Part shown: positions 5,851-31,736 of the stretch, in pieces
How the letters are laid out: every line of letters starts with the position of its first letter
Numbering within the stretch: the first letter of the stretch is position 1
DNA from: an unicellular cyanobacterium SU2
Lineage (GTDB): Bacteria; Cyanobacteriota; Cyanobacteriia; Cyanobacteriales; Microcystaceae
DNA length: 32,389 bases
Assembly (NCBI GenBank): GCA_002110465.1
Contig: NEED01000079.1
Span: forward strand, 1 to 32,389
Reading direction: 5' to 3'
The notes under the pieces: model-generated
What the model saw: the letters and a program-made list of their open reading frames with translations, nothing else
Databases searched by the model: none
What the model was told of the DNA's origin: nothing
Made by a program: the position numbers and the translations under genes

Positions 5851-6897
5851 ATGAAAATTAGTGAAATTATCGAAAAACTTAGGTCATTAGTTGCCGATTC
5901 TAGCTTAACTAACTCTCCTGATAACAATCCCCCTATTACTGGACTGGCTCCTGTTGATGAAGCCGTAACGGGACAACTCAGCTATATTGAAGGGGATAAA
6001 TTTGCGGCAATGGTTCACAAAACGGCTGCCAGTGCCTTGATTTTGCCCCTTGATGAAGTATTACAGCGTCAAGCCGCCGAAAAAGGAATTGCTTGGATAG
6101 CCACCCCACAACCCCGTTTAATGTTCGCTCAGGCGATTAATCTGTTTTATCAGCCTTTTCATCCTGCCCCTGGTATCCATGCAACGGCTGTTATTGACTC
6201 TGACGTGGAACTGGGAAAAGATATCTATGTTGGTCCTCATGTCGTCATTGAAAAAGGAGTGACTGTAGGAGATAACGCTTGCATTCATGCCAATGTAGTA
6301 ATTTATCCAGGGGTTTCCATCGGCGATCGCACCATTCTCCATGCTAACTGTACCATCCACGAAAGAACTAAAATCGGTTCTGATTGCGTTATTCATAGCG
6401 GTGCAGCGATCGGTTCTGAAGGGTTTGGATTTGTTCCTATTCCCGAAGGCTGGTTTAAAATGGAACAGTCAGGGTATGTGGTTCTTGATGATGGGGTAGA
6501 AATTGGGTGTAATAGTGCGGTTGATCGCCCTGCGGTAGGAACCACTCGGATTGGTCGCAATACCAAGCTGGATAATTTAGTTCATGTTGCCCATAGTTGC
6601 CAAATTGGGGAGAATTGTGCTTTAGCGGGTCAAGTTGGCTTAGCAGGGGGCGTAAAAGTAGGAAATCGCGTTATTTTAGCGGGACAGGTAGGAGTTGCTA
6701 ACCAGGCTAACATCGGAGATGGAGTGATTGCCACAGCCCAGACAGGAATTCCTAATGATATCGCCTCAGGAGAAATTGTGTCTAGTAGTCCGGCAGTTCC
6801 TAACAAACTATATCTCAAAGTTTCTGCTATTTATAAACGCCTTCCTGAGATGTATCAGACCCTAAAACGTTTGCAAAAAAAGATTGAAGGGAATTAA
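5851..6897 (+). CDS. lpxD: LpxD, UDP-3-O-acylglucosamine N-acyltransferase
   Basis: 348 aa. Catalyses N-acylation of UDP-3-O-acyl-glucosamine, the third committed step of lipid A biosynthesis, in the cytoplasm. Residues 1-100 are the uridine-binding N-terminal domain; from about 105 to 310 there are hexapeptide repeats of a left-handed beta helix (for example [16 protein letters not shown]). The active-site histidine motif [10 protein letters not shown] is present with His248 at the catalytic position, followed by [12 protein letters not shown]. The C-terminal helix ([17 protein letters not shown]) is typical. Length fits the family. Other lpx genes are not in this window, as is usual when lpxD is unlinked from lpxA/C in cyanobacteria. 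Confidence 0.92.
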
Positions 6898-6985
6898 GTT
6901 TGTCAAATAGGTGGGCAAAAATAAATACAAATTATTGTAATCTTTGTTAATAGATAGCTGCTTGTTCTCTTACTACATAGATACA

Positions 6986-7723
6986 CTAGGAATTATTAGT
7001 GAATACTTCGAGAGTAAAATGAGTGAACCCAGAAGGAGCAAAAAATCTAATTCCCCGTTGCAAAATACTAGAATTGATTAGCCAATCTGTCGCCAAAAAA
7101 AATGTTTTTTCCGGTTCTAGTTGCCGAGGACCTGTAACTGAAAGACCATCATTCAAATGCCAGGTTAAATAATTTTCTGCTAAATCTTCTAATCCCTTCC
7201 ATGAAGTAGGTACTGAGGAAGACACAACATAATCTGGTGTCATACTTTTCGCTGTTCCCGTCCAACCCTCACAGATAGCTTGAGTGAGTGAATTATCAGC
7301 CTGAATTTCTGATAAATTGTCTAAGTATTCAGAAATTACAGTCATTCGTTCTATTTTTTTGTGTTCATTATAGATTAATGCTAGACTAACCCGTCTATTT
7401 TCATATCTAAATCCTGTCTCGAAACCAAAACTCTTTTCTAATTCGACTTGTTGAGAACCCCAAGAAAAACTATTATCTAAAAATAAACATGACATAATAG
7501 GCTTATTATAGGGTCCGAAAGTTTTAGTCTCTTTTTTCCCATCGTTATAAGTATAATGATTCTGGTGTTTAATTTGACTGCCATCTTCCTTAACTTGAAA
7601 ACTTCTAATACATTGAAAAGATTCAATTATCTTTCCTGAAGAAGAATATTTATTCCAAGTTCCGTGCCAGTTACCTACATGATATTCACAAAAGTTTTGC
7701 CAATTTTGAAGTTGTGGATTCAT
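6986..7723 (-). CDS. DUF3598 family protein
   Basis: 245 aa. The N-terminus (LQNWQNFCEYHVGNWHGTW) is the hallmark of the cyanobacterial/plastid DUF3598 family, a lipocalin-like beta barrel distantly similar to CpcS/CpeS-type bilin lyases. Seen further on are KTFGPYNKPIMSCLFLD and the C-terminal RGIRFFAPSGFTHFTLEVF. No enzymatic residue can be assigned and the function of the family is unknown; binding of a hydrophobic ligand is a fold-based inference. The ATG at 7723 starts immediately at the conserved region. It converges with lpxD. The upstream minus-strand neighbour, the LRAT-like gene, ends 134 nt before. Confidence 0.7.
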   Translation of the reverse strand: MNPQLQNWQNFCEYHVGNWHGTWNKYSSSGKIIESFQCIRSFQVKEDGSQIKHQNHYTYNDGKKETKTFGPYNKPIMSCLFLDNSFSWGSQQVELEKSFGFETGFRYENRRVSLALIYNEHKKIERMTVISEYLDNLSEIQADNSLTQAICEGWTGTAKSMTPDYVVSSSVPTSWKGLEDLAENYLTWHLNDGLSVTGPRQLEPEKTFFLATDWLINSSILQRGIRFFAPSGFTHFTLEVFTNNS

Positions 7724-7857
7724 CGGTGATTAAAAATTAATATACTGAGATATTTTAGCATAGGTAGGATGACTATAGGAAATGTATTATTAATCGACTT
7801 AATAAACAGATAAAAATATTTATTCATCAATCAAAGTAAAATCTACACATACCTCTT

Positions 7858-8214
7858 TTAGATACTGCCTCTAAACAAAATATTTAAAACAGGCTGAAAT
7901 ACTTGAATAATTTTTGCTCCAACGTTGGTTACAGAGACTTCTTGAGTTTGACCAGAATAACATTTTCCAGTCATAACATACCAAGCAAACATTTCACAGT
8001 TATTACTATGAATATTATAGGTTCCAAACTTATCAGGATAATTTTTTGCTCTATCTTCTTGTTCAGGGTTTAATTGAACGCCATTCCCTTTATACTCAAT
8101 ACCTTTGGGTCCCCATCCAATAGAATTTTCAAAAGTTCCATCCGAGGATAGAAAATAGTGTCGAGCAATACCACCAGTTGTTTCAATGGGAATACAATAA
8201 ATTGATGTAGCCAT
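7858..8214 (-). CDS. Small LRAT/NlpC-P60-like protein
   Basis: 118 aa. The segment RAKNYPDKFG...HSNNCEMFAWYVMTGK resembles the C-terminal half of LRAT-type permuted papain-fold proteins, whose catalytic Cys sits in an NNCEHF motif; here Cys73 is retained and the following His is Met. An N-terminal His19 (ARHYFLSSDGTF) could be the first catalytic His, but the second expected His appears as Asn30. Such proteins in bacteria are acyltransferases or peptidases; activity here is doubtful. A longer frame starts at a TTG (8244), but I prefer the ATG at 8214 (MATSIYCIP), which begins the first beta strand. No clear ribosome binding site is seen for either. Assignment is inference from motif shape. 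Confidence 0.5.
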   Translation of the reverse strand: MATSIYCIPIETTGGIARHYFLSSDGTFENSIGWGPKGIEYKGNGVQLNPEQEDRAKNYPDKFGTYNIHSNNCEMFAWYVMTGKCYSGQTQEVSVTNVGAKIIQVFQPVLNILFRGSI

Positions 8215-8350
8215 AGAAGTTTTCTTGTTTAATATCCAATTCAAAAAACAATAGATAACTCAAAACTACAAAACAGAAGATAATTTGTCAAGTAGATTCA
8301 AAAACTTACGTCTATACTCGGTATAACTGAGATAATTAATTTAATTTCCT

Positions 8351-9703
8351 CTAAAAACCTGAGCGACTTAAAGAAGGTAAAAAATTGACCAATTGAGGAA
8401 AAACAATAATTAAAATCAGGACAAATACCTGAAGTAAAATAAAAGGAATTGCCCCGCGATAGATATCTTCTGTTTTAACTTCTGGTGGGGCAACTCCCCT
8501 TAAATAAAACAAGGCAAAGCCAAAAGGTGGGGTTAAAAATGACGTTTGTAAATTAGCTGCAATAATTACTCCGTACCACATTAAATCTAAACCTAATGTT
8601 TCAGCAACTGGTTTAAAAATAGGGATAACAATAAAAGCAATTTCAAAGAAGTCAATAAAGAAACCTAAGATAAAAATCGTGACCATACTAACTAATAAAA
8701 AGCCAATTTGTCCCCCTGGCAGATTAGCTAAAAGATCTAACATAAAGCGATCGCCTTCTAATCCCCGAAACACTAAACTAAAGGCTGTTGAACCAAATAA
8801 AATAAAAATTACCATAGTCGTAATGCGTAGGGTCGCATCACAAACTTGCTTTAAAGAAACCCAACTTAATTGACCATTAAATGCCGCTAATATGATAGTT
8901 CCTAATGCCCCAACTGCCCCTGCTTCTGTGGGGGTTGCAATACCAAAAAAGATACTTCCCAACACTAATAAAATCAACAATAACGGCGGTAACATCGCCT
9001 GTAAAACTTGTTTGACTAACGCTTTTTTTCCGATATTTCTTTCTTCTAGCGGTAAAGGGGGAGCAACATCAGGACGTAAAAAAGCCACAATAATCACATG
9101 AAGACAAAACGCCCCTGCCATCATTAACCCAGGAATAATAGAACCAATAAATAAATTTCCTACGGGTATCCCTAATTGATCAGCGAGAACCACTAATACG
9201 ATACTAGGCGGAATTAATTGTCCTAGAGTTCCTGATGCAACGATCGCCCCTGTTGCTAATTCTTTGTTATAGCCATAACGTAACATAATAGGCAAAGAAA
9301 TTAACCCCATAGCAACTACTGTAGCGGCTACAACTCCGGTAGTTGCAGCTAATAATGCTCCCACAATTACGACAGCTAAAGCTAGTCCTCCTCTTATTCG
9401 GCCCAATAAAATTCCCATGGTTAACAGTAATTTTTCTGCAATTCCTGTTTTTTCTAACATGGAACCCAGAAATATAAAATAGGGAATGGCTAATAGGGTA
9501 TAATTCGCCATGATTCCAAAGATTCTCTGAGGTAAAGCAGTTAAGAATATAGGGTCAAATATCCCTAAAGCCACCCCAATTCCGCCAAAAATAATAGCCA
9601 CTCCCCCCAAAGAGAATGCCACAGGATAACCCACCGAAAGTAGGATTAAAGCCCCAACAAACATTAAGGAACCTAACCATTCATATGCCCATTCATACGC
9701 CAT
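8351..9703 (-). CDS. TRAP transporter large permease (DctM/GtrB type)
   Basis: 450 aa, almost entirely hydrophobic, with about a dozen membrane helices and the DctM signatures: LLAIPYFIFLGSMLEKTGIA, GTLGQLIPPSIVLVVLAD, GLFF-like TPTEAGAVGALGT, and NLQTSFLTPPFGFALFYLRG near the C-terminus. It is the channel-forming subunit of a tripartite ATP-independent periplasmic transporter, driving solute uptake with a sodium or proton gradient across the plasma membrane. Its start overlaps the end of the small permease gene by 11 nt, indicating translational coupling. In Synechocystis the homologous set (GtrA-GtrB-GtrC) imports glutamate, so an organic acid or glutamate substrate is plausible, but the substrate cannot be read from the sequence. 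Confidence 0.88.
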   Translation of the reverse strand: MAYEWAYEWLGSLMFVGALILLSVGYPVAFSLGGVAIIFGGIGVALGIFDPIFLTALPQRIFGIMANYTLLAIPYFIFLGSMLEKTGIAEKLLLTMGILLGRIRGGLALAVVIVGALLAATTGVVAATVVAMGLISLPIMLRYGYNKELATGAIVASGTLGQLIPPSIVLVVLADQLGIPVGNLFIGSIIPGLMMAGAFCLHVIIVAFLRPDVAPPLPLEERNIGKKALVKQVLQAMLPPLLLILLVLGSIFFGIATPTEAGAVGALGTIILAAFNGQLSWVSLKQVCDATLRITTMVIFILFGSTAFSLVFRGLEGDRFMLDLLANLPGGQIGFLLVSMVTIFILGFFIDFFEIAFIVIPIFKPVAETLGLDLMWYGVIIAANLQTSFLTPPFGFALFYLRGVAPPEVKTEDIYRGAIPFILLQVFVLILIIVFPQLVNFLPSLSRSGF

Positions 9704-20217: not shown

Positions 20218-21948
20218 ATGGTTGCACTCACAGTTCATAGTAGGGATTGTACTCGATCAAGTCGTTTAACTGCACAAACGAGAGACATTGGGCAAGAAAC
20301 AAGAGTTATTCGTTGTTTAGACTGGGATCGCGATCGCTTTGATATTGAGTTTGGCTTAAGAAATGGAACAACTTACAATTCCTTTTTAATACAAGGGGAA
20401 AAAACCGCTTTAATTGACACCTCTCATCGGAAGTTTGAGCAATTATATTTGGATAATTTAACCAGTTTAGTCGATTTGTCAACCCTTGATTATCTGGTTG
20501 TTAGTCATACCGAACCGGATCATAGTGGGTTAATTAAAGATATTTTAAAACTAGCTCCCCAAATTACTATTGTCGGTTCAAAAGTCGCCATACAATTCTT
20601 AGAAAATATGGTGCATCGACCCTTTAACAGTTTAATTGTCAAGAGTGGATCTACCTTAGATTTAGGGAATGGACATGAATTAAACTTTATTTCTGCCCCT
20701 AATCTTCACTGGCCTGATACCATCTTCACTTATGATCAAAAAACCAGCATTCTCTATACTTGCGATGTCTTTGGAATGCACTACTGTGATGATTATCTCT
20801 ATGATGAAGAACCCGATCTACTCCAAGGAGATTTCAAGTATTATTTCGACTGTTTAATGGGTCCTAATGCCCGTTCAGTTTTAGCAGCGTTGAAACGCAT
20901 CGATAAGCTAAATATTGATACCATTGCCACTGGACACGGACCATTGTTAAAACATCATATTCCCCAATGGGTTAGTAATTATGGTAAATGGAGCAAAGAA
21001 CAGGCTAAAACCGATAATTTAGTAGTCATCTTTTACGACGAAAACTATGGTTATGGAGAAGAGATCGCTAGACATATTGCCCAAGGACTGCAAAAAACCG
21101 AGGTTAACATTGACTTAATTGATTTATCCACCACTGATCCTCATGAAACCAGACACTTAGTCTATGAAGCCAAAGGGTTAGTGTTGGGTATGCCTTCCCA
21201 AAGTGATGATCATGCTCAGGTCATGGTTAATACTATTTTAGCCGTTGCCCACCCCAAACTTGCCATCGGTTTATTTGAGTCAGGAGGAGGAGAAGACGAA
21301 CCCATTTACCCTCTACGCAACAAATTTCAAGAAATTGGCGTAACCGAGGGATTTCCCCCCATTTTGCTGAAAACCGCTCCTACTCCTAGCACCGAAAAAA
21401 TAGCCGAAGAAGCAGGAACGGATCTCGGTCAATGGATCACCCGCGATCGCTCTATCAAAACCTTAAAAAACATCGATTCGGAGCTAGAGAAAGCATTAGG
21501 ACGCATTAGCAATGGATTGTATTTAATTACAGCTAATAAAGGGGAAATTGCCGGATCGATGTTAGCCTCTTGGGTCATTCAAGCGAGTTTAGAACCCTTG
21601 GGGGTTGCCATTGCGGTGTCCAAAGATCGGGCTATTGAGTCATTATTGCATCCAGGCGATCGCTTTGTTCTCAATGTACTCGAAGAGGGAAATTCTCAGG
21701 GGTTGATGAAACACTTTCTTAAACGCTTTCCCCCAGGGGCTGATCGCTTTGCTGGCATTAAAATCTACCCTGCTAAAAATGGTTCTCAGATTTTAGCCAA
21801 TGCCTTAGCTTACCTTGAATGTCAAGTGACAAGTCGCATTGACTGCAGAGATCACTGGATTATCTATAGCACAGTTCAAATTGGACGAGTCTCGAAAGTG
21901 GACGGTATAACAGCAGTTCATCATCGCAAAGTTGGAACTCATTATTGA
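20218..21948 (+). CDS. flv4: Flv4, diflavin flavodiiron protein
   Basis: 576 aa. Cyanobacterial flavodiiron proteins pass electrons to O2 or another acceptor through a diiron/FMN core fused to a C-terminal flavin reductase domain. Domains: metallo-beta-lactamase-like (about 30-275), flavodoxin (about 275-415), flavin reductase (about 435-575). The canonical diiron ligands are present: H97-x-E99-x-D101-H102 (SHTEPDHSGL), LHWPDT, CDVFGMH and ATGHGP. This canonical set plus gene order identifies it as Flv4 rather than Flv2. In Synechocystis Flv2/Flv4 form a heterodimer that relieves excess electrons at the photosystem II acceptor side. The ATG at 20218 has a strong AGGAGG upstream. First gene of the flv4-sll0218-flv2 operon. 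Confidence 0.92.
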   Translation: MVALTVHSRDCTRSSRLTAQTRDIGQETRVIRCLDWDRDRFDIEFGLRNGTTYNSFLIQGEKTALIDTSHRKFEQLYLDNLTSLVDLSTLDYLVVSHTEPDHSGLIKDILKLAPQITIVGSKVAIQFLENMVHRPFNSLIVKSGSTLDLGNGHELNFISAPNLHWPDTIFTYDQKTSILYTCDVFGMHYCDDYLYDEEPDLLQGDFKYYFDCLMGPNARSVLAALKRIDKLNIDTIATGHGPLLKHHIPQWVSNYGKWSKEQAKTDNLVVIFYDENYGYGEEIARHIAQGLQKTEVNIDLIDLSTTDPHETRHLVYEAKGLVLGMPSQSDDHAQVMVNTILAVAHPKLAIGLFESGGGEDEPIYPLRNKFQEIGVTEGFPPILLKTAPTPSTEKIAEEAGTDLGQWITRDRSIKTLKNIDSELEKALGRISNGLYLITANKGEIAGSMLASWVIQASLEPLGVAIAVSKDRAIESLLHPGDRFVLNVLEEGNSQGLMKHFLKRFPPGADRFAGIKIYPAKNGSQILANALAYLECQVTSRIDCRDHWIIYSTVQIGRVSKVDGITAVHHRKVGTHY

Positions 21949-22073
21949 AGATAGGCAAGAGACAACAGGCAACGGACAATAGGGTTATATCATCGCAAGA
22001 TTTCCTTATCTTTTTCCATCTCCTAGTCTCTTTATCTTCCCATTCATTATTAACCTTTTAAAATCTTAAGATC

Positions 22074-22610
22074 ATGTACGAATCTTTAAAAAATACCTCC
22101 CCACAGCGCAAAAGTTGGCTTAACTTAAACCGTATCGTCAACATTCTGGAAGTAATTCAAGATGCCATTGTCATCTGTCTGTGTTTGGGACTATTTTCCT
22201 TCATGGTGTTGCAACTGTATTCAATGGTATTGTCTCTCTTGCCACCGGTGCAATTTCAGGTGGTCACAGCTGACATTTTATCCTTGCTTATTTGGGTGGA
22301 ATTGTTCCGTTTATTGATTATTTACCTCAAAGAACAACGTATTTCTATCGGAGTTGCCGTAGAAGTAGCCATTGTCTCAGTTTTACGAGAATTTATTGTC
22401 AGAGGAGTCCTGGAAATTCCTTCAACGCAAGTATTAGCAACCTGTGCCTTTTTACTGGTTTTGGGGACATTAATGGTGATTCGAGTTTGGCTTCCTCCTA
22501 CTTTTGACGGAATTGATCCCGAACACACCGTATCCCAACGCCATCAACAACGTTCAACGGCAAAAAAAGTACAAAATAATGGTAATCACGCTATTTTAGC
22601 GAAAAATTAA
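22074..22610 (+). CDS. Sll0218-like / PsiE-family membrane protein
   Basis: 178 aa with about four membrane helices (IVICLCLGLFSFMVLQLYS, then a second near 65-85, a third near 98-115 and a fourth ILATCAFLLVLGTLMVIRVWL region). It resembles the PsiE (phosphate-starvation-inducible E) family and, by its position between flv4 and flv2, is the counterpart of Synechocystis Sll0218, a thylakoid protein that stabilises photosystem II dimers. It carries a hydrophilic Gln/Asn-rich tail. The start ATG at 22074 follows flv4 by 125 nt and flv2 begins 130 nt later. The biochemical role of PsiE-type proteins is not established. Confidence 0.85.
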   Translation: MYESLKNTSPQRKSWLNLNRIVNILEVIQDAIVICLCLGLFSFMVLQLYSMVLSLLPPVQFQVVTADILSLLIWVELFRLLIIYLKEQRISIGVAVEVAIVSVLREFIVRGVLEIPSTQVLATCAFLLVLGTLMVIRVWLPPTFDGIDPEHTVSQRHQQRSTAKKVQNNGNHAILAKN

Positions 22611-22637
22611 GTCCTGAATTCAGATTTCGAAGTTTAG

Positions 22638-22712
22638 TCTATTCTTCTTTGTCTCCTTGTCTCCTTGTCTCCCTGCTCCCTGCTCCCCCTCTCTCCCCTG
22701 CCTCCTCATCAA
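22638..22712. repeat. Pyrimidine-rich degenerate tandem repeat
   Basis: Runs of GTCTCCTT and GCTCCC type units, almost all C and T on the plus strand, between the Sll0218-like gene and flv2. Such C/T-rich spacer repeats are common in cyanobacterial intergenic DNA. It makes a spurious upstream extension of the flv2 frame from a TTG at 22657. Confidence 0.6.
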
Positions 22713-22740
22713 AATAACCGACTATCATCAAATATCAATC

Positions 22741-24468
22741 ATGCTTACCTCAACCTGTCTTCCTACCCGTCCCCGTGATGTTCAAACTGTTACCATTGGG
22801 ACAAATACGACGATTTTTCGCTCTCGAACCTGGGAACGTCTCAAATTTGAAGTAGAGTATGCCCTATGTAAAGGAACAACAGCCAATACTTATTTAATTG
22901 AAGCGGATAAAATAGCCTTATTTGACCCGCCAGGAGAGTCTTTTACTGAGATTTTTTTAGAAAAACTAGAACATTATCTGGCTTTATCGGAGATAGACTA
23001 TGTAATCCTCGGTCATGTTAATGCCAACCGTATGGCTACATTGAAAATTTTACTGGAAAAAGCTCCACAAATTACTGTAGTTTGTTCTAAACCGGCTGCT
23101 AAAACCCTAAAAGCGACACTTCCTCAATGGAAGAACCAAATTAAAGTCGTGCGTTCGGAGGATAGCTTAGAGTTAGGACAAGGTCATCAATTACAGTTTA
23201 CCTTTATTCCAACTCCTCGCTGGCCCGATGGACTGTGTACCTATGATGATAAAACTCGTATTCTTTACACCGATAAATTATTTGGTCTACATCTATGTCA
23301 CGATGCGGTGTTTGATGACGACTGGAAAGAGTTAGATCACGATCGCCGTTACTATTTTGATTGTCTTCATGGGGCGCAAACAAAACAAGTTACGGAGATT
23401 TTAGATAGAATTGAACCATTTTCTGCTAAATATTACGCCCCTGGTCATGGGGTAATCGTACGCTATAGTTTAAGTCGTTTAACCTACGATTATCGTCAAT
23501 GGTGTCAACAACAGCAGTGTCAAGACTTAAAAGTGGCCTTATTGTACGCTTCTGCTTATGGAAATACAGCCATTATGGCTCAAGCGATCGCCCAAGGGAT
23601 CATGGATCAAGGGGTCGGGGTAGAATTAATTAATTGTGAGTCAGCGACAACCGAAGAAATTACCCGCGCTATTGAAGACTGTGATGGTTTTGTGATTGGT
23701 TCTCCAACTCTGGGTGGTCATGCACCCGTACAAATTGAAACTGCGTTAGGAATTGTGTTAGGGAATGACAGTAAAACCAAGTTAGCGGGGGTATTTGGGT
23801 CTTATGGCTGGAGTGGGGAAGCTGTTGACTTAATTAGTCAAAAATTGCAAGATGGCAACTATAAGTTAGGATTTGAGCCGCTACGGGTTCGTTTCAGTCC
23901 CGATGAATCTGCCGTAGAAAACTGTCAACAAACAGGGGCTAACTTTGCTCAAACCTTGAAAAAACGTCAAAAACAAGGATCTGTCACCTCTGGGTTAACC
24001 ACGGTGCAAAGCGATCGCACCGAACAAGCGATCGGGCGTATTGTCGGTTCTCTGTGTGTGATTACCACCTGTCAAAACCACAGTCATCAAGGGTTTTTAA
24101 CCTCTTGGATCTCTCAAGCAACCTTTACTCCACCAGGGTTAATGATTGCTATTGATAAAAAACAATGGAATGAAGCAGATTTTAACCCACAAACTCCGTT
24201 TATTGTTAATCTTCTTAAAGAAGGGCGCAATGTCAGGAAACATTTTTCTGAGTGCAAGAGTAGTTCTTTTGAACAACTGGAGACAGAAACCGCGTCCAAT
24301 GGTTGTTTGATTTTAAAGGAGGGTTTAGCTTATCTTGAATGTACCGTACAAAAACGCATCGAGGCCGGCGATCGCTGGTTAGTTTATGCACTGGTTAACC
24401 AAGGTAATGTTTTAGAAGGGACAGGGTTAACGGCGATCGCTCATCGAAAATCAGGACGACAACTATAA
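22741..24468 (+). CDS. flv2: Flv2, diflavin flavodiiron protein with altered metal site
   Basis: 575 aa, same three-domain layout as Flv4. The diiron ligand motif is non-canonical: H92-V-N94-A-N96-R97 (GHVNANRMAT) replaces HxExDH, PRWPDG replaces LHWPDT, and TDKLFG replaces CDVFG; the last His motif APGHG is kept. This is the known Flv2-type pattern, in which the site differs from classical flavodiiron proteins and the subunit pairs with Flv4. Flavodoxin (about 255-400) and flavin reductase (about 425-575) domains are intact (SAYGNTAIMAQAIAQGIMDQ is the FMN phosphate loop). The frame extends to a TTG at 22657 through a pyrimidine repeat, so I chose the ATG at 22741 (MLTSTCLPTRP). Confidence 0.92.
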   Translation: MLTSTCLPTRPRDVQTVTIGTNTTIFRSRTWERLKFEVEYALCKGTTANTYLIEADKIALFDPPGESFTEIFLEKLEHYLALSEIDYVILGHVNANRMATLKILLEKAPQITVVCSKPAAKTLKATLPQWKNQIKVVRSEDSLELGQGHQLQFTFIPTPRWPDGLCTYDDKTRILYTDKLFGLHLCHDAVFDDDWKELDHDRRYYFDCLHGAQTKQVTEILDRIEPFSAKYYAPGHGVIVRYSLSRLTYDYRQWCQQQQCQDLKVALLYASAYGNTAIMAQAIAQGIMDQGVGVELINCESATTEEITRAIEDCDGFVIGSPTLGGHAPVQIETALGIVLGNDSKTKLAGVFGSYGWSGEAVDLISQKLQDGNYKLGFEPLRVRFSPDESAVENCQQTGANFAQTLKKRQKQGSVTSGLTTVQSDRTEQAIGRIVGSLCVITTCQNHSHQGFLTSWISQATFTPPGLMIAIDKKQWNEADFNPQTPFIVNLLKEGRNVRKHFSECKSSSFEQLETETASNGCLILKEGLAYLECTVQKRIEAGDRWLVYALVNQGNVLEGTGLTAIAHRKSGRQL

Positions 24469-24913
24469 TCGATTTTCCTGATATCGCTTTTGCTTCATTT
24501 TGAGGTGTTAAACCCAAATTTTTCATCAAATCTAGTGATAAAAACGGATTGGGTTTGGCATCCTCTTACCTTTAAAAAAATTTACGGTAAATGTTCCTGT
24601 TGAAAAAAAACAGGAATACTATATTGTTGATTTAAGAAAAATAACTAGAGAAGTTCAATGACTCGCAAACTGCTGTAGGCAATGTTTTTTTAATATGTCT
24701 GCGTTAGAAAAAGTATTAATGTAACTTATATTTTAGCGATCGCAAAGAATTGAAAATCAAATCGCTGTAACTATTGCATAACAAGGATTTCAGAGGTTGG
24801 CTGCCCCATATCGCACGAACCCTATATTACCGCCTAGTTGTCAGATAAGGAAGATCCTTAGACATGGAAATAAGTAGAAATAACAGAAAATAAGTAGAAC
24901 TATTTCACCATTG
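24469..24913 (+). other. Intergenic DNA after flv2, possible untranslated transcript
   Basis: About 440 nt without a credible gene, ending in a strong hairpin terminator. Near 24770-24850 there is a more GC-rich island (GGTTGGCTGCCCCATATCGC and onward), and a repeated AATAAGTAGAA motif lies near 24863 and 24889. The stretch could be the flv operon 3' end, a small RNA or a decayed insertion-sequence end. Nothing identifies it firmly. Confidence 0.35.
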
Positions 24914-24937
24914 CCCCCGTTTTGGGGGATTTTTTTT
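24914..24937 (+). terminator. Rho-independent terminator
   Basis: A CCCCC stem (24914-24918) pairs with GGGGG (24924-24928) across GTTTT, followed by A and an eight-T tract at 24930-24937. Strong plus-strand intrinsic terminator, roughly 450 nt after flv2 and 150 nt before the glycosyltransferase operon, so the two are transcriptionally insulated. Confidence 0.8.
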
Positions 24938-25093
24938 CCCTCATTTTTGGGACTGACATCTCAAGTTTTGTGAACTTATACTAAGACCAGATTATGCCGC
25001 ACTTAACAACGCCATAAGTATTGACCGTGTAACTTCTCGTGAGACCCCGTTATCTTTTTTGTCCACTTAGTTATATTGCACCCTCCTCAAATT

Positions 25094-26347
25094 ATGCCTT
25101 TAACTACCATGAAAAAGCCTACTATTCCTCTTAAATCCTTACCTAACCTCAAAAAAGTCCAAAAGCTCAGAATTGCCTTTTATTCCCACGATACAATGGG
25201 TTTAGGTCATAAGCGTCGAAACCTCTTAATTGCCCAAAGTTTAGCCCATTCTGCTCTTAATGCAGATATCTTAGTGATCAGTGGAATGAGTGATATGACC
25301 AAAGTGGGGACTCATCCGAACATTGAATATTTAACCCTACCTGCTTTATATAAGACCAAAGAAGGGCAATATCAAGCCCGTCGTTTGGATATGTCCCTTG
25401 ATGCTATCATTAAACTGCGATCGCAAGTCATTCGGGTAGCTATCAAGAATTTTCAGCCGGATGTCTTTATTGTGGATAATGTTCCCAGAGGGGCCGAAGG
25501 AGAATTAGATCGTACCCTCAAATATTTACGCAACCAGGGTAAAACCTTTTGTGTTCTTGGGTTACGAGATATTTTGGATCAACCAGAGGTCATTATCCCA
25601 AGTTGGAAAAAGACCAAAAATGAAGAGACGATCGCTCGTTTCTATGATAAAGTTTGGATTTATGGTGATGCCACGGTTTACGATGCCATGAAAAAGTATC
25701 AATTTTCGGCTGGGGTTGCAGCTAAAACTCGCTACACAGGGTATTTAGACCAACGGTATCGCTTAAACTATACAAAATCTCAGGAAAAACAGCCCATAAA
25801 CCAAAAATCTGAACGCCTAGCCCTTTGTTTGGTGGGTGGGGGACAAGACGGTTATCAATTAGCAAAAGGGTTTGCCCAAGCACAGCTACCCCAAGATACT
25901 AACGGAATTATCATAACAGGTCCTTTGATGCCCAGTCAACTGCGTCAACAGTTACACCATGAAGCAAAAAATAGACCTAATTTACAGGTATTAGATTATG
26001 TTTCTGAACCCACTTTATGGCTACAAAAAGCAGATTTTGTGGTAGCCATGGGGGGCTATAATACCACTTGTGAAATTTTATCTTTTGAGAAACGAGCGTT
26101 AATTGTTCCTCGTATTCAACCGAGAGAAGAACAGTTAATTCGGGCGCAACGGTTACAAGCATTAGGATTAGTCGATATGTTACACCCTAATGATATTACC
26201 CCGAAAGCTTTAAGTCAGTGGTTATGTCAAGATGTGGTTAAACCTAACGTGCATGAAAATATTGACTTTAAAGGATTACAACGTATCCCTCAATATTTAG
26301 GAGAAATGTTAGCAGGATCTGACCCTATACTTCTCAAAGTCAGCTAA
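25094..26347 (+). CDS. MurG-like glycosyltransferase (COG4671 type)
   Basis: About 417 aa, GT-B fold. The N-terminal domain opens with LRIAFYSHDTMGLGHKRRN, the nucleotide-sugar-transferase pattern of predicted glycosyltransferases related to MurG/GT28; the C-terminal domain has the glycine loop LCLVGGGQDGY and the VAMGGYNTTCEILSF segment that contacts the nucleotide. The frame opens at a TTG (25076); an ATG at 25094 or 25109 is more likely, and no ribosome binding site helps to choose. It is the first gene of a five-gene cluster with two GT4 genes, an ABC exporter and a kinase, pointing to synthesis of a glycoconjugate. Substrate and acceptor unknown. Confidence 0.75.
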   Translation: MPLTTMKKPTIPLKSLPNLKKVQKLRIAFYSHDTMGLGHKRRNLLIAQSLAHSALNADILVISGMSDMTKVGTHPNIEYLTLPALYKTKEGQYQARRLDMSLDAIIKLRSQVIRVAIKNFQPDVFIVDNVPRGAEGELDRTLKYLRNQGKTFCVLGLRDILDQPEVIIPSWKKTKNEETIARFYDKVWIYGDATVYDAMKKYQFSAGVAAKTRYTGYLDQRYRLNYTKSQEKQPINQKSERLALCLVGGGQDGYQLAKGFAQAQLPQDTNGIIITGPLMPSQLRQQLHHEAKNRPNLQVLDYVSEPTLWLQKADFVVAMGGYNTTCEILSFEKRALIVPRIQPREEQLIRAQRLQALGLVDMLHPNDITPKALSQWLCQDVVKPNVHENIDFKGLQRIPQYLGEMLAGSDPILLKVS

Positions 26348-26398
26348 AAACTAGAACAATTTTCAAACAGCAAACTTAGTGAGGGAGGAACTTAATTT

Positions 26399-27616
26399 AT
26401 GCGTGTTGGTTATGTGGTTAAACGGTATCCCCGTTATTCAGAAACCTTTGTAGTTAATGAAATTTTAGCCCATGAAAAAGCGGGATTAAACATTGATATT
26501 TTTGCCCTGCGTCCCCCTTGTGACACCCATTTTCAAAACTGTATTTCTCAGGTTAGGTCCAGGGTAACTTATATTCGTAAACCCATCCAGGGACGGATTA
26601 GTGAGTCTCTTAATAGTTTATCTCCAACTGCTGCTAGTTATTTTTGGGCAGAATTACAAGAATTAGGTAAATTAGTTCCTGATTTCTGGAGTAAACTATC
26701 TATAGCACAAGGAGAAACAGCGAGTACGGTTTATCAAGCTGCTTGGTTGGCCAGGGAAGTTAAGTTAAGAGGAATTACCCATTTACACGCCCATTTTGGG
26801 TCAGTTGCTACCAGTGTAACTCGCTTAACGTCTCACTTTGCGGATGTTCCTTATACGTTTACAACCCATGCTAAAGATATTTTTCATGAAAGTGTAGATA
26901 TTGATGATATGAACCGAAAACTTAGGGATGCTTCGACTGTTGTTACGGTGAGTAATTATAATCAACAATACCTACAAAAAACTTACGGAAAAGTAGCTGA
27001 TAAAGTACGAAGAATTTATAACGGATTGAATTTATCTCAACTTAATTATCAGTCTCCTCAATATCGTCCTCTTCGTATCATTTCAGTAGGTCGTTTGGTA
27101 GAAAAAAAAGGAACTTCGATTTTAATTGATGCTTGTTTTTTATTAAAAGAGTTAGGTTTTGAGTTTCATTGTCAAATTGTGGGGACAGGCGACTTAGAAA
27201 CAAAATTAAAGCAGCAAATTGAAACATTAAAGTTAGATGACTGCGTTGAAATTATTGGGCCACATCCTCAGAATGAAGTGTTTAAATTGATTCAAGAGAG
27301 TGCCGTTTTTGCAGCCCCTTATATTATTGGAAAAGATGGAAATAGGGACGGTTTACCAACTGTATTATTAGAAGCAATGGCTTTAGGAACTCCTTGTATT
27401 GGAACGGATGTTACGGGTATTCCTGAAATGATTAAACATGAAGAAACAGGGTTAATTATTCCTCAAAATAATCCCGAAGCTTTAGCGATGGCATTACAAA
27501 CTTTATTAATCAGTGAAAATATGAGAGTTCAGTTAGCAGAAAATGCTAGAAAACTGATGGAAACTGAATTCAATATTGAGCAAAATGCGGCTAGTTTAAG
27601 ACAGTTTTTTCAGTGA
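26399..27616 (+). CDS. GT4 family glycosyltransferase
   Basis: 405 aa. Opens MRVGYVVKRYPRYSETFVVN, the N-terminal pattern seen in GT4 enzymes of exopolysaccharide clusters (WcaL/ExoL-like). Central motifs: HLHAHFGSVATSVTRLTSHF, TTHAKDIF and the nucleotide-binding SVGRLVEKKG; the Glu-containing E-x7-E region is DGLPTVLLEAMALGTPCIG. A retaining GT-B transferase acting at the cytoplasmic face is the expected role. A ribosome binding site GGGAGGAAC precedes the ATG at 26399. Gap to the upstream gene is 51 nt, to the downstream gene 49 nt. Confidence 0.82.
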   Translation: MRVGYVVKRYPRYSETFVVNEILAHEKAGLNIDIFALRPPCDTHFQNCISQVRSRVTYIRKPIQGRISESLNSLSPTAASYFWAELQELGKLVPDFWSKLSIAQGETASTVYQAAWLAREVKLRGITHLHAHFGSVATSVTRLTSHFADVPYTFTTHAKDIFHESVDIDDMNRKLRDASTVVTVSNYNQQYLQKTYGKVADKVRRIYNGLNLSQLNYQSPQYRPLRIISVGRLVEKKGTSILIDACFLLKELGFEFHCQIVGTGDLETKLKQQIETLKLDDCVEIIGPHPQNEVFKLIQESAVFAAPYIIGKDGNRDGLPTVLLEAMALGTPCIGTDVTGIPEMIKHEETGLIIPQNNPEALAMALQTLLISENMRVQLAENARKLMETEFNIEQNAASLRQFFQ

Positions 27617-27665
27617 AAAGTTATCAGTTATTAGGTAATAATTAGTTTGTTTTAGGAGGTAATTA

Positions 27666-28835
27666 ATGATGCGTATTGCTTATATTTGTGCTGATTCAGG
27701 TATTCCTATTTTTGGACAAAAAGGATGTTCTATTCATGTGCAAGAAATTCTTAGAGGGTTTTTAAAACAAAATCATCAAGTCCATTTATTTAGTCCTCGG
27801 TTTGGTGAGAATAAACCCGATGATTTACAAACCATAAAATTACATGAATTGTTACCCATTCCGAAAGTTGCCCAAGGGTTAAGAGAAAAAATTGCTTTAT
27901 CTATGAACTCAGAAATAGAAGCAGCGTTAGACTATGCAGAACCCTTTGATCTAGTGTATGAAAGGTATTCCTTATGGAGTTATTTCGCAATGGAATACGC
28001 TAGAAAAAAAGGGATTCCTGGGATTTTAGAAGTTAATGCACCTTTAATTTTAGAACAACAAAAACATCGTAGTTTAGTCCATTTTCAAGAAGCTGAAACC
28101 GTTGCCATCAAAGTATTTAATGCAGCGACAAGCATTATTGCTGTGTCTGATGAAGTGAAAAATTATGTCAGTCAATATGTTAAAAACCCTGACAAAATAA
28201 AAGTGATTCCCAATGGAGTCAATGCTGATCGGTTTCATCCTAAAAAGATCACACCTCATGCTTATTTTACCGTTGGTTTTGTGGGATCATTAAAACCTTG
28301 GCATGGCTTACCTATTTTATTAGAAGCTTTTGAACAATTTCATCATCATTATCCCCAAAGTAGACTATTAATTATCGGAAAAGGACCTGAAAGCGATCGC
28401 TTACAAACGGAAATTAATCAGAAAAATCTCAACTCAGCCGTACAGTTAACTGGGTCTGTACCTCCCTATGCTATCCCCTTTTTATTAGAACAAATGGATG
28501 TGGCAGTTGCCCCATATCCCCCCTTAGATAAATTCTATTTTTCCCCTCTGAAAGTCTATGAATACATGGCCGCAGGGTTACCAGTTGTGGCCAGTAATAT
28601 TGGGCAAATAAGGGACGTTATTAAACATGGAAACAACGGGTTATTGTGTCTCCCTGGAGATAGTAACGCCTTAACAGAAGCCTTTGTCCGTTTAATGCGA
28701 TCGCCCCAACTTCGTCACCAGTTAGGCACATCAGCCCGTCAAACGATCCTCGATCATTATACCTGGGATCAGGTGGTAGAGAAGATTTTACGGTTAGCAA
28801 AAGAAGCAAACAAAACTTACCTAAACGTTGCGTAG
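27666..28835 (+). CDS. GT4 family glycosyltransferase, second
   Basis: 389 aa, GT-B. Opens MRIAYICADSGIPIFGQKGC with the acceptor-loop pattern of GT4 enzymes; the nucleotide-sugar domain has VGFVGSLKPWHGLPILLEAF and SPLKVYEYMAAGLPVVASN. It is distinct from the upstream GT4 gene in sequence, so the two probably add different sugars. AGGAGGTAATTA precedes tandem ATG codons; I use the first. The stop at 28835 is 19 nt before the ABC transporter start, the tightest spacing in the operon. Confidence 0.82.
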   Translation: MMRIAYICADSGIPIFGQKGCSIHVQEILRGFLKQNHQVHLFSPRFGENKPDDLQTIKLHELLPIPKVAQGLREKIALSMNSEIEAALDYAEPFDLVYERYSLWSYFAMEYARKKGIPGILEVNAPLILEQQKHRSLVHFQEAETVAIKVFNAATSIIAVSDEVKNYVSQYVKNPDKIKVIPNGVNADRFHPKKITPHAYFTVGFVGSLKPWHGLPILLEAFEQFHHHYPQSRLLIIGKGPESDRLQTEINQKNLNSAVQLTGSVPPYAIPFLLEQMDVAVAPYPPLDKFYFSPLKVYEYMAAGLPVVASNIGQIRDVIKHGNNGLLCLPGDSNALTEAFVRLMRSPQLRHQLGTSARQTILDHYTWDQVVEKILRLAKEANKTYLNVA

Positions 28836-28854
28836 TGAAACGGAGAAACCAGTA

Positions 28855-30687
28855 ATGACAACAACAAAATCATTAAAAAGTACAATTCCCAATTTAGGGC
28901 GAATTTTAGCCCGTTTTTGGCCTTATTTGCGCCAAGAAAAGTCATGGCTAGGGTTTGCCATGTTAGCGGTGACGGGAGATGTGGTGTTACGCATTCTCGA
29001 ACCCTGGCCCCTGAAATTTATTTTTGATCATGTTCTCATCCAAGATCAGTCCTCATTGCCGGTTTTTGAGGCTATAAGCCCCCTTGCTGTCTTAACCCTT
29101 TGTGCGTTAGGAATCATCGGTATTACGGGTTTAAGGGCGTTTTCAGCCTACTGGAGTACGGTTTCTTTAGCCACTGTGGGCAGTCGAGTGATGATTCAAG
29201 TTAGAGAACAGGTGTACCGTCATTTGCAAAGATTATCCCTGACTTATCATAACCAGGCCAGAAGTGGGGATCTCATTGTTCGGGTGAGTAGTGATGCGAG
29301 TCGCTTACAAGAGATTTTAATTACGGCAACGCTTCCCCTAGTTATCAGTATCATGACGTTATTGGGGACAGTAGGGGTTATGTTTTGGTTAGATGCCCAT
29401 TTAACCTTATTATCGCTGTTAACCTTCCCTTTATTTATTTTTGCGTCTGGCCGTCTCAGTCAACGTATTCGGGCCGCGTCTATGATGCAACGACAACAGG
29501 AGGGGGAAGTTGCTGCTACTGCATCGGAGTCATTAGCAGCTATTAAACTAATTCAAGCGTTATCTTTAGAAAATGCATTTGCTGACAACTTTGCTAAACA
29601 AAATGACCAAAGTTTAAGCCAAAGTGTGCAAACACAACAATTATCCGCCTCTTTAGAACGGGTGGTGGATGGCATCATTGCCTTAGGAATGGCGATCGTT
29701 TTATGGTATGGATCATGGTTAGTGTTACGAGATGCCTTAACACCAGGGGATGTCATTGTATTTTTAACCTACCTTAAAAATAGTTTTAAACCAATTCAAA
29801 ATTTTGCCAAATATACAGGACGGTTAGCTAAAGCGGCAGCCTCTGGGGAACGTATTTTAAACATATTAGATGAAACCCCAGAGATTAAAGATTTACCCAA
29901 CGCCATGATCGCCCCTTCTTTCCAGGGAAATATAATGTTTCAGGATGTTAGTTTTGCTTACAATTATTCTCATCCTATCCTTAATAAGATTAATTTAGAT
30001 ATTAAACCAGATCAATTTGTTGCTGTTGTGGGACAGTCGGGTAGTGGCAAATCAACCTTAATGAGTTTATTACTCAGATTGTATGCTCCCGTATCAGGAA
30101 ATATTCTAATTGATGGGCAAAATATTCGCAATTATACGTTAAAGTCTTTACGTTCTCAGATGAGTGTGGTTTTACAAGAAAGTCTTTTATTTGCAGCGAC
30201 TATTAAAGAGAATATTGCCTATGGAATGGATAATATTACTGATGAAGAAATTATCAAAGCTGCTAAGTTAGCCAATGCCCATGATTTTATCGAAAAACTA
30301 CCCCAAAAATACGATACTTTTGTAGGAGAAAGAGGGGCAACTTTATCAGGGGGACAACGACAAAGAATTTCTATTGCTAGGGCTGCTATTCGTCAAACTC
30401 CCATCTTGATTTTAGATGAACCAACAACAGGACTTGATCAAAAAAGTGAAAAAGCTGTTATCGAAGCTTTACAAAGATTAGCTAAGAATAGAACCACATT
30501 TTTAATTACTCATGATCTTTCATTAGCAACTCAAGCTGACATGATTTTATATATAGAAAGAGGACAAGTTTTAGAACAAGGAACCCATTGGGAATTATTG
30601 CAAAAAAAAGGGCTATATTCCCAATTATATAGAATTCAATGTCATAAAAATAACCAGTCTTTTGAACCATTACCTATTGCAAAATAA
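28855..30687 (+). CDS. MsbA-type ABC exporter (half-transporter, fused TMD-NBD)
   Basis: 610 aa. Six membrane helices in the first ~320 residues (for example GLAFAMLAVTGDVVLRILEP region, and GIIALGMAIVLWYGSWLVL), then an ATPase domain: Walker A GQSGSGKST at about 393-401, LSGGQ at 497-501, Walker B ILILDEPTTG with Asp521-Glu522, and LITHDLS. These exporters flip lipid-linked glycans or other amphipathic products out of the inner leaflet; with three glycosyltransferases next door this one probably exports their product. The frame opens at a TTG (28828), but the ATG at 28855 has GGAGAAACC upstream and avoids overlap with the preceding gene. Confidence 0.88.
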   Translation: MTTTKSLKSTIPNLGRILARFWPYLRQEKSWLGFAMLAVTGDVVLRILEPWPLKFIFDHVLIQDQSSLPVFEAISPLAVLTLCALGIIGITGLRAFSAYWSTVSLATVGSRVMIQVREQVYRHLQRLSLTYHNQARSGDLIVRVSSDASRLQEILITATLPLVISIMTLLGTVGVMFWLDAHLTLLSLLTFPLFIFASGRLSQRIRAASMMQRQQEGEVAATASESLAAIKLIQALSLENAFADNFAKQNDQSLSQSVQTQQLSASLERVVDGIIALGMAIVLWYGSWLVLRDALTPGDVIVFLTYLKNSFKPIQNFAKYTGRLAKAAASGERILNILDETPEIKDLPNAMIAPSFQGNIMFQDVSFAYNYSHPILNKINLDIKPDQFVAVVGQSGSGKSTLMSLLLRLYAPVSGNILIDGQNIRNYTLKSLRSQMSVVLQESLLFAATIKENIAYGMDNITDEEIIKAAKLANAHDFIEKLPQKYDTFVGERGATLSGGQRQRISIARAAIRQTPILILDEPTTGLDQKSEKAVIEALQRLAKNRTTFLITHDLSLATQADMILYIERGQVLEQGTHWELLQKKGLYSQLYRIQCHKNNQSFEPLPIAK

Positions 30688-30734
30688 CCGTAAGCCGATG
30701 AACTCCCCACCCTACAAACAAGGAAAATTAAACT

Positions 30735-31736
30735 ATGAATATTCAAGTTGACGACTCATTTAATCTACTTTCTGATCCTAATTTATTGTTTCTAAAAGAT
30801 GCTTTATTACCTAATAAAGTTGAACAAGCTTTTAAACACTATTTTCCAGATATCATCAAAAATAATTGCTTATCTGAAATTAAAATTATCCGTTACAAAA
30901 CACAAAAACGCTGTTTAATTGAATATCAATTCACGGGTGAAAAAGAATTTAGCTTACTCGGAAAAGTAAGATTTAAAGGGACTGATACCAAAAGTTATTA
31001 TCTACAAAAATATCTGTGGAAAAATGGCTTTAATGATCACAGTTTAGACAATATTTCTGTTCCTCAACCTATTGGGGTTATTCCTCAGTGGAAAATGTGG
31101 TTACAGAGAAAAGTTCCAGGATATACTACCACCCTTTTATTAGGTAAACCCGATGGGGTTAATATTGCCGAAAAAATTGCTTACGCTGCTTATAAATTAC
31201 ATCAATTTCCTGCTAAAACAGATCGCTATCATATCATTGATAATGAACTGCATATCTTACATCAAAAATTACCATTAGTTATTAAATTGTATCCCCAGTG
31301 GAAGAGTCGAGTTAGGGAGATTTTAAAACAATGTAATAAGTTAGGTAACCGTTTATCTTATATTCCGTGTGTCGGTATTCATCGAGACTTTTATGCAGAC
31401 CAAATTATCATTAATAGTTCTTGTCTTTATTTACTGGACTTAGATTTATATTGTTATGGTGATCCGAGTTTAGATATTGGTAATTTTATCGCCCACATTA
31501 CTGAATATAGTTTAAGGGTTTTAGGGGATTTTCAAGCCTTAAAAGATCGAGAAATAGCCCTGCAAGAAGCTTTTATTCAACTAACAGGAGAAGAAAGCAG
31601 ACAAAGGATCATGATTTATAAATTCCTAACTTTAGTTAGACACATTTATATTAGTACGCAAATAAAAGAACGGAATGTTTATACAGAAGATTTAATCAGG
31701 TTATGTGAAAGTTATTTAGAAACAGAAATGATTTAA
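30735..31736 (+). CDS. APH/choline-kinase-fold phosphotransferase-like protein
   Basis: 333 aa. The catalytic Brenner loop is GIHRDFYADQIII (His216, Asp218; the canonical Asn is Gln) and the metal site is YLLDLDLYCYGDPSLDIGNF (Asp235, Asp237), as in aminoglycoside/choline kinases and related sugar or lipid kinases. The N-terminal ATP lobe is weaker (IKIIRYKTQKRCLIEYQF), with no obvious APH signature for antibiotics. Given its place after the exporter and glycosyltransferase genes, phosphorylation of a sugar or lipid precursor is likelier than drug resistance; this is inference. A ribosome binding site AAGGAAAATT precedes the ATG. Last gene of the operon. Confidence 0.72.
   Translation: MNIQVDDSFNLLSDPNLLFLKDALLPNKVEQAFKHYFPDIIKNNCLSEIKIIRYKTQKRCLIEYQFTGEKEFSLLGKVRFKGTDTKSYYLQKYLWKNGFNDHSLDNISVPQPIGVIPQWKMWLQRKVPGYTTTLLLGKPDGVNIAEKIAYAAYKLHQFPAKTDRYHIIDNELHILHQKLPLVIKLYPQWKSRVREILKQCNKLGNRLSYIPCVGIHRDFYADQIIINSSCLYLLDLDLYCYGDPSLDIGNFIAHITEYSLRVLGDFQALKDREIALQEAFIQLTGEESRQRIMIYKFLTLVRHIYISTQIKERNVYTEDLIRLCESYLETEMI

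Follow-up and report, generated by a model that had tools for sequence, protein, structure and literature searches.

The msbA2 operon of Sinorhizobium meliloti (SMb21188-SMb21191) joins glycosyltransferase genes to a gene for an MsbA-type exporter, is activated by the ExoS/ChvI two-component system and is proposed to serve the synthesis and export of a polysaccharide of unknown nature (PMC3687685, PMC12239276). Here we analyse an operon of related composition, genes A to E at positions 25094-31736 on the plus strand of a 32,389-nucleotide contig from the unicellular cyanobacterium SU2 (NEED01000079.1; the whole stretch is called the window below), which encodes three glycosyltransferases, an MsbA-type ATP-binding cassette (ABC) exporter and an APH-fold kinase. 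We read this operon, with a probability of about 0.5, as the core of a conserved module that would make, phosphorylate and export an anionic glycan and that would be metal-regulated in some relatives. The two operons have glycosyltransferases and an MsbA-type exporter in common; unlike the cassette, the msbA2 operon begins with an acyltransferase gene, and the accessible text names no kinase for it. As an orthologue it was rejected: in the msbA2 region (locus L061) only D finds matches, at 28.7% identity over 81% and 31.7% over 45% of its length, with no match to A, B, C or E. The homologues of A on S. meliloti pSymB sit elsewhere, near 837 kb, in the order A-B-A2 and without E.

Other described systems share single features with the cassette. 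MsbA (lipid A), PglK (lipid-linked oligosaccharide) and ChvA (cyclic glucan) have the same single-chain half-transporter fold as D, a transmembrane domain joined to a nucleotide-binding domain, but D scores below all three exporter cut-offs: 434.8 against 602 bits for MsbA_lipidA, the equivalog model for the lipid A flippase, 278.8 against 585.4 for chvA and 185.2 against 1000 for PglK. Like the Wzx/Wzy and KpsMT/Wzm-Wzt pathways, the cassette gathers several glycosyltransferases in one cluster; unlike them, it lacks Wzx, Wzy, OPX, a chain-length regulator and a two-chain ABC transporter. Neither the Wzx nor the Wzy family appears in the five proteins (Pfam, NCBIfam) or in selected recurrent neighbours (Pfam), and D is one chain rather than the separate ABC-2 permease and ATPase of ABC-dependent capsule and O-antigen export. 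Scans of the window agree with the initial annotation that no polymerase, Wzx or acyltransferase gene lies directly beside the operon. That annotation recognised no described pathway of this composition; we found none, nor any description of the cassette, in the literature searched, which lay mainly outside subscription papers.

A five-gene operon under purifying selection

Gene A (25094-26347) encodes a glycosyltransferase of the family 28 (GT28)/MurG-like type, labelled COG4671-like in the initial annotation, and is followed on the same strand by two family 4 (GT4) glycosyltransferase genes, B (26399-27616) and C (27666-28835), by D (28855-30687), the MsbA-type exporter, and by E (30735-31736), an APH-fold small-molecule kinase carrying the motifs HRDFYxDQ and DxD. 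All five open reading frames (ORFs) are intact, and the gaps between them, 51, 49, 19 and 47 nucleotides from A to E, agree with the annotated range of 19-51. Of the ribosome binding sites, described as mostly clear, B has a candidate in GAGGGAGGAAC, C in TTAGGAGG, D in GGAG and E in AAGGAAA; A has no clear one, and its start, at TTG 25076, ATG 25094 or ATG 25110, is uncertain. Three Crocosphaera/Cyanothece contigs hold the cassette at 85-94% protein identity, which suggests a Crocosphaera-type host, and the host genome (5.24 Mb in 82 contigs) contains a single match to A. Fourteen comparisons of single genes with their counterparts in three close relatives gave ratios of nonsynonymous to synonymous substitution rates of 0.11-0.20, a set that leaves out B of L029, which is split into two ORFs; thus all five genes are under purifying selection.

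Pfam and NCBIfam family assignments bear out the families for glycosyl transfer, phosphorylation and export that the initial annotation had proposed. The GT28/MurG-type domain of A is identified by Glyco_tran_28_C (38.1 bits, cut-off 22), its best matches in a profile search of solved structures are MurG (1f0k at 2.7e-06), and its score against the murG equivalog (20.2 bits) is below the cut-off of 250.25. Its glycine-rich loops are invariant in 20 aligned sequences. B and C both match Glycos_transf_1 in Pfam, the nearest NCBIfam models of B being EpsE and WcaL, below cut-off. D carries ABC_membrane and ABC_tran on one chain, with Walker A, LSGGQ, Walker B and H-loop recognisable by eye; among the NCBIfam matches listed the nearest models are TIGR02204 (438.5 bits, cut-off 780.4) and MsbA_lipidA, and its top solved-structure matches are ABCB4 and ABCB1, then Sav1866 and MsbA. 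None of the NCBIfam matches listed for A to E, which for B, C and D are the best 25 each, reaches its own cut-off.

The window copy of E scores 21.9 bits against the APH model PF01636, slightly below the cut-off of 23.2, and an APH match at an E-value of 0.001 or lower was found in all 15 E homologues scanned, so that model and motifs together place E among the APH-fold kinases. The HxD...N/Q and DxD motifs are catalytic in such kinases. Since R53, K77, H216, D218, Q223, D235 and D237 are invariant in 20 of 20 aligned homologues, E is probably an active kinase, and the neighbouring genes make a sugar or glycan its most likely substrate. Scores against LxmK of class V lanthipeptide synthesis were far lower than its cut-off of 315 bits (25.8 for the window copy, 36.9 for that of L036 and 48.4 for the second kinase, E2, of L039).

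Co-inheritance across cyanobacteria and plasmids

We searched 146 genomes of the phylum and found homologues of A in 18 (E-value of 1e-20 or lower) and of E in 15 (1e-10 or lower). A larger draw of 386 cyanobacterial genomes, which includes every A- or E-positive genome of the first, yielded homologues of A in 32 and of E in 21. The A homologues fall into two forms, one close (at least 50% identity) and one distant (33-39%); 21 genomes have the close form and four have both, the count of 21 including genome G296, where close-form A is in two pieces. Close-form A and E occupy exactly the same 21 of 386 genomes and none carries only one of them, for which the naive co-occurrence probability is 4e-35, a figure that would hold only for independent genomes, which these are not. 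Three genomes of the same genus with sizes of 2.8-3.1 Mb (G147, G183 and G268), which we suspect to be reduced endosymbionts, have neither gene.

The order A-B-C-D-E is kept in 19 of the 21 genomes, the surroundings having been read in all of them. Two of these 19 carry E2 between D and E, and one has an extra ORF between A and B. The exceptions are L040, where E lies upstream of A and E2 follows D, and L043/L066, where A is apart from B-C-D-E. Flanking genes are mostly not common among the 22 loci, save in a few close pairs and for the porin and two-component partners described below. Distance matrices of the five proteins correlate pairwise at r 0.89-0.96 over 18 loci, a result that fits co-inheritance but that vertical descent alone would also give. 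The five genes form one co-inherited unit, in line with the single functional unit first proposed, and their co-occurrence and order confirm that the operon is real and beyond chance.

The cassette also extends to plasmids, where 275 of 72,556 records hold homologues of A and 14 hold homologues of E. Escherichia coli plasmid p1RM9088 carries A-B-C-D-E2-E, followed by genes for an alginate-export-family barrel (Alginate_exp, 84.2 bits against a cut-off of 25.2) and for a nucleotide-sugar dehydrogenase whose nearest model is UDP-glucose 6-dehydrogenase, below cut-off (568.5 against 757 bits). The A-to-E stretch of p1RM9088 recurs in 18 of 5,426 complete E. coli genomes and is plasmid-borne every time. 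Plasmids of Paracoccus aestuarii and Pseudorhodobacter turbinis carry A-B-C-D and then a fused protein (740 amino acids; 810 amino acids as the longest ORF) that combines matches to E and to E2; upstream of the cassette lies a sensor/regulator pair in divergent orientation. The three rhizobial stretches that we read carry A-B-A2 and nothing that matches E. With proteobacterial plasmids preserving the order at 32-50% identity, the five genes do co-occur outside close relatives, a point on which the initial annotation had left its proposal open to refutation; the unit reaches further, and has more connections, than was reported there.

On two plasmid stretches of Candidatus Manganitrophus with A-like genes, a TMEM165/GDT1 gene lies near the cluster (L053, 9572-9847; L063, 2271-2543). 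This family, UPF0016, includes the manganese exporter Mnx (PMC11649195, PMC7380456).

Partner genes and a YTCAT direct-repeat box

Among the 20 other cyanobacterial genomes with the cassette, 12 have an OprB-family porin gene after E or E2, and 10 have genes for a HAMP sensor kinase and an OmpR-type regulator adjoining it; these assignments come from scans of one or two members per family and, for the remainder, from similarity. The porin scanned reaches 467 bits against the NCBIfam model 'iron uptake porin', whose cut-off is 100, and the one sensor scanned is nearest the cztS_silS_copS heavy-metal family, below its cut-off (212.1 against 292.55 bits). The five-gene core of the initial annotation stands; the OprB porin, the two-component pair and a metal-type operator, all seen at other loci, had been missed; the window's own copy has no box, no two-component pair and no porin.

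Twelve distant, type-2 loci (L046-L049, L073-L080) share some of these partners, with a sensor/regulator pair in eight, a porin in five, a second GT28 gene in 12, a histidine phosphatase in seven and an E match in none of the 12. In five of them a gene of the UDP-glucose/GDP-mannose dehydrogenase family lies upstream of A (one scanned, the other four assigned as homologues, of which one is a fragment), in four cases directly after a box (L047, L073, L075 and L077), and some type-2 clusters contain an epimerase-family gene. We dropped a streptomycin-like scheme, in which a kinase acts inside the cell and a phosphatase outside, because the type-2 histidine phosphatases show no signal peptide by eye.

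The box in question, YTCAT-N6-YTCAT-N6-YTCAT on the strand of A, occurs upstream of A in several loci. It is perfect in five of 23 type-1 and three of 12 type-2 upstream regions and matches at 11 of 12 positions in four more; the remaining 23 hold nothing clearly above mononucleotide shuffles (60 each) for the triple box. Perfect triples number 19 in 37 loci (747,605 bases), for which base composition predicts 0.2. As the box was first seen in these same loci and then counted there, a scan of whole genomes and a contrast between MntC-like genes and their paralogues are the better tests. The scan of 20 genomes found 35 perfect sites in 15 of them; 14 of the sites (13 places) lie less than 4 kb from A, including one 3 kb upstream of type-1 A in G024. 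Among the places away from the cluster, three precede MntP genes (PF02659), to which the box runs in inverse orientation, two lie before genes for ZnuA/MntC-type binding proteins, one precedes an ABC ATPase gene, and two lie by regulator genes of the cassette system (G308 and G042). A YTCAT pair stands upstream of the best MntC-like gene in 12 of 14 genomes, against none of 14 for the second-best match, none of two for the third and 18 of 664 background tiles; here a gene is called 'MntC-like' by rank, as the top PF01297 match of its genome, the contrast leaves out seven further matches without a locus, and one of the 14 genes, that of G119, was already known from the off-cluster sites. A regulator homologue of 60-92% identity is present in five of the 12 cassette genomes searched, and four of these five have a perfect cluster box, as opposed to none of the other seven.

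Some box sites have further neighbours. In L033, genes for a sodium:sulfate symporter-family protein and a glycerate kinase lie between box and A (6343-9147), and an identical perfect box lies by the same gene in G022 and G074 (L091 and L110), the L110 copy encoding a PPIC-type rotamase.

In some relatives the arrangement resembles the ManSR and CopRS regulons of Synechocystis, with an OmpR-type regulator, TTCAT direct repeats (reported for CopR and upstream of mntC; PMC4182526) and a sensor nearest cztS/silS/copS; ManR itself was not identified in the cassette genomes. CopR sites have the form TTCAT-N4-5-TTCAT, whereas the cassette box has N6 spacing with an 11-bp period and its targets include a glycan cassette. 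The same paper also places such sites before mntC and in the nrsRS-nrsBACD intergenic region and reports no effect of CopRS on mntC or nrsBACD-region genes despite them (PMC4182526). ManSR is described as sensing manganese and repressing mntCAB (PMC7020235, PMC11649195, PMC13421787), and the ManSR literature consulted, seen in part, gives no ManR consensus. The box class thus seems to serve several metal regulators, and we limit the claim to a metal-type regulatory link in some relatives, for which manganese is our best guess as the candidate metal.

Proposed function of the cassette and putative control of the window copy

The enzymatic steps, the phosphorylated product, the direction of transport and the metal signal are all predicted from sequence. 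In our proposal a short oligosaccharide would be assembled in the cytoplasm by A, and then by B and C, with a membrane acceptor or a small primer as its probable starting point, and E would phosphorylate this oligosaccharide or a sugar precursor to give an anionic glycan. D would carry the glycan across the plasma membrane, and an outer-membrane beta-barrel would pass it outside, of the OprB family in many cyanobacteria and of the alginate-export family on the E. coli plasmid; in the window genome a general porin would have to serve as the exit. Given a box of the kind found at manganese transporter genes and the frequent sensor/OmpR-type pair, the product in box-bearing lineages is predicted to be a metal-responsive envelope or extracellular anionic glycan.

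Rather than being secreted, the product could be an envelope glycolipid, with A to C glycosylating a lipid, E phosphorylating it and D flipping it as MsbA and PglK do. This would change how divalent cations bridge the outer membrane, on the model of metal-triggered lipopolysaccharide remodelling systems. The nearness of D to MsbA-type models, the lipid translocases among its structure matches (which do not discriminate) and the MurG matches of A, MurG being an enzyme that acts on a lipid carrier, would fit this explanation. We still consider it unlikely: a porin or alginate-export barrel accompanies the cassette in many loci, for which a flipped lipid would have no obvious need, and no lipid enzyme was found beside the cassette among the families scanned. 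An ordinary exopolysaccharide (EPS) accessory locus, feeding a Wzy- or synthase-dependent polymer made elsewhere and kept in order by operon transfer, is a rather doubtful alternative. The models nearest to B, EpsE and WcaL, come from EPS and colanic acid loci, and nucleotide-sugar dehydrogenase genes adjoin homologues; yet an exporter, often accompanied by an outer-membrane barrel and regulators, belongs to the cassette itself, and no Wzx/Wzy/Wza-type family occurs among the neighbours scanned. Self-protection of a producer of a glycosylated bioactive small molecule, with E as a resistance-type phosphotransferase and D as an efflux pump, would suit the profile matches of E to an 'aminoglycoside phosphotransferase family protein' chain (3e-05) and weakly to APH(2'') chains (0.06-0.16) and the similarity of A to macrolide-type glycosyltransferases, but is very improbable, as E is present in 21 of 21 genomes, cyanobacteria and enteric plasmids share one gene order, and the recurrent neighbours that were scanned, a subset of the flanking ORFs, include no scaffold-making gene.

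Several observations weigh against a metal-regulated module for an anionic glycan. Genes for an initiating transferase, a polymerase and a ligase are all missing from the operon. The structures that AlphaFold predicted for A and E, each with four close sequences, are unreliable (mean predicted local distance difference test scores of 50.6 and 47.9), and little weight attaches to fold searches with such poor models, in which A matched GT-B transferase and UDP-GlcNAc 2-epimerase folds (94 matches at an E-value of 0.001 or lower) and E matched APH/choline-kinase folds, none at that level. A reversed control pattern gave 10 sites in the 20 genomes, against 35 for the box. The box sites away from the cluster number 21, at 17 places when a pair in G095 is counted as one, and nine of these places have no recognised metal or cassette-system gene (seven were read). 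The YTCAT pair is found at only two of five MntP genes, and L039, L044, L045, L071 and L072 have an adjoining two-component pair yet no triple box upstream of A. Since the TTCAT-repeat class is common to CopR, mntC and nrs sites, the signal need not be manganese. The window genome has no perfect box at all, no close homologue of the cluster sensor (best 34%) or regulator (47%) and a best match of 39% to the cluster porin; the metal link is therefore claimed for relatives and not for the window copy. There, no YTCAT pair or triple lies upstream of A, and an HTCAT variant alone is found at the MntC-like and MntP genes of that genome.

The window copy has a putative control region of its own, all of it on the plus strand. 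Three tandem 10-bp repeats at 24870-24899 (ATAAGTAGAA, ATAACAGAAA, ATAAGTAGAA), with variants in L029-L031, form a possible operator, and are followed by a terminator-like hairpin with a T run (24914-24937) upstream of a sigma70-like promoter, CTGACA-18-TATACT (24953-24982; 10 of 12 positions). Region 24469-25120 contains five terminator-like matches, four of them overlapping at 24914-24937, against 0.4 in shuffles. Sigma70-like sites are not above shuffles (three against 2.4), so support for the predicted promoter comes from conservation: both hexamers are unchanged in four of four Crocosphaera-type loci, in which about 230 bp 5' of A is conserved and sequence further upstream is not. Repeats and hairpin together could act as an operator or attenuator. 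In Crocosphaera, where metal-type control seems absent, the operon is apparently driven by a promoter particular to that lineage. Directly upstream of the operon, at 20218-24468, two flavodiiron-type genes flank a PsiE-domain gene; both have ODP and flavin reductase domains, the second also flavodoxin. We take this arrangement to resemble flv4-2.

Overall, the interpretation first given to the operon is partly supported. The cassette order is kept from cyanobacteria to E. coli plasmids and, of the kinase and close-form GT28 genes, neither occurs without its counterpart in the 386 genomes sampled, which points to one undescribed product. As a quite unlikely extension of the anionic-glycan proposal, a secreted, metal-responsive phospho- or uronate-oligosaccharide might serve as a divalent-metal ligand, either as a glycan counterpart of siderophores or to buffer metals outside the cell. 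Such a system would have a dedicated sensor, biosynthetic route, kinase, inner-membrane exporter and outer-membrane porin and would be common to cyanobacteria, alphaproteobacteria and enteric plasmids. The passage of manganese across the cyanobacterial outer membrane is treated as unsettled and speculative in one account (PMC7020235). If the operator link to manganese transporter genes is true, it would connect metal supply and the cell surface with the crossing of manganese through the outer membrane in cyanobacteria.

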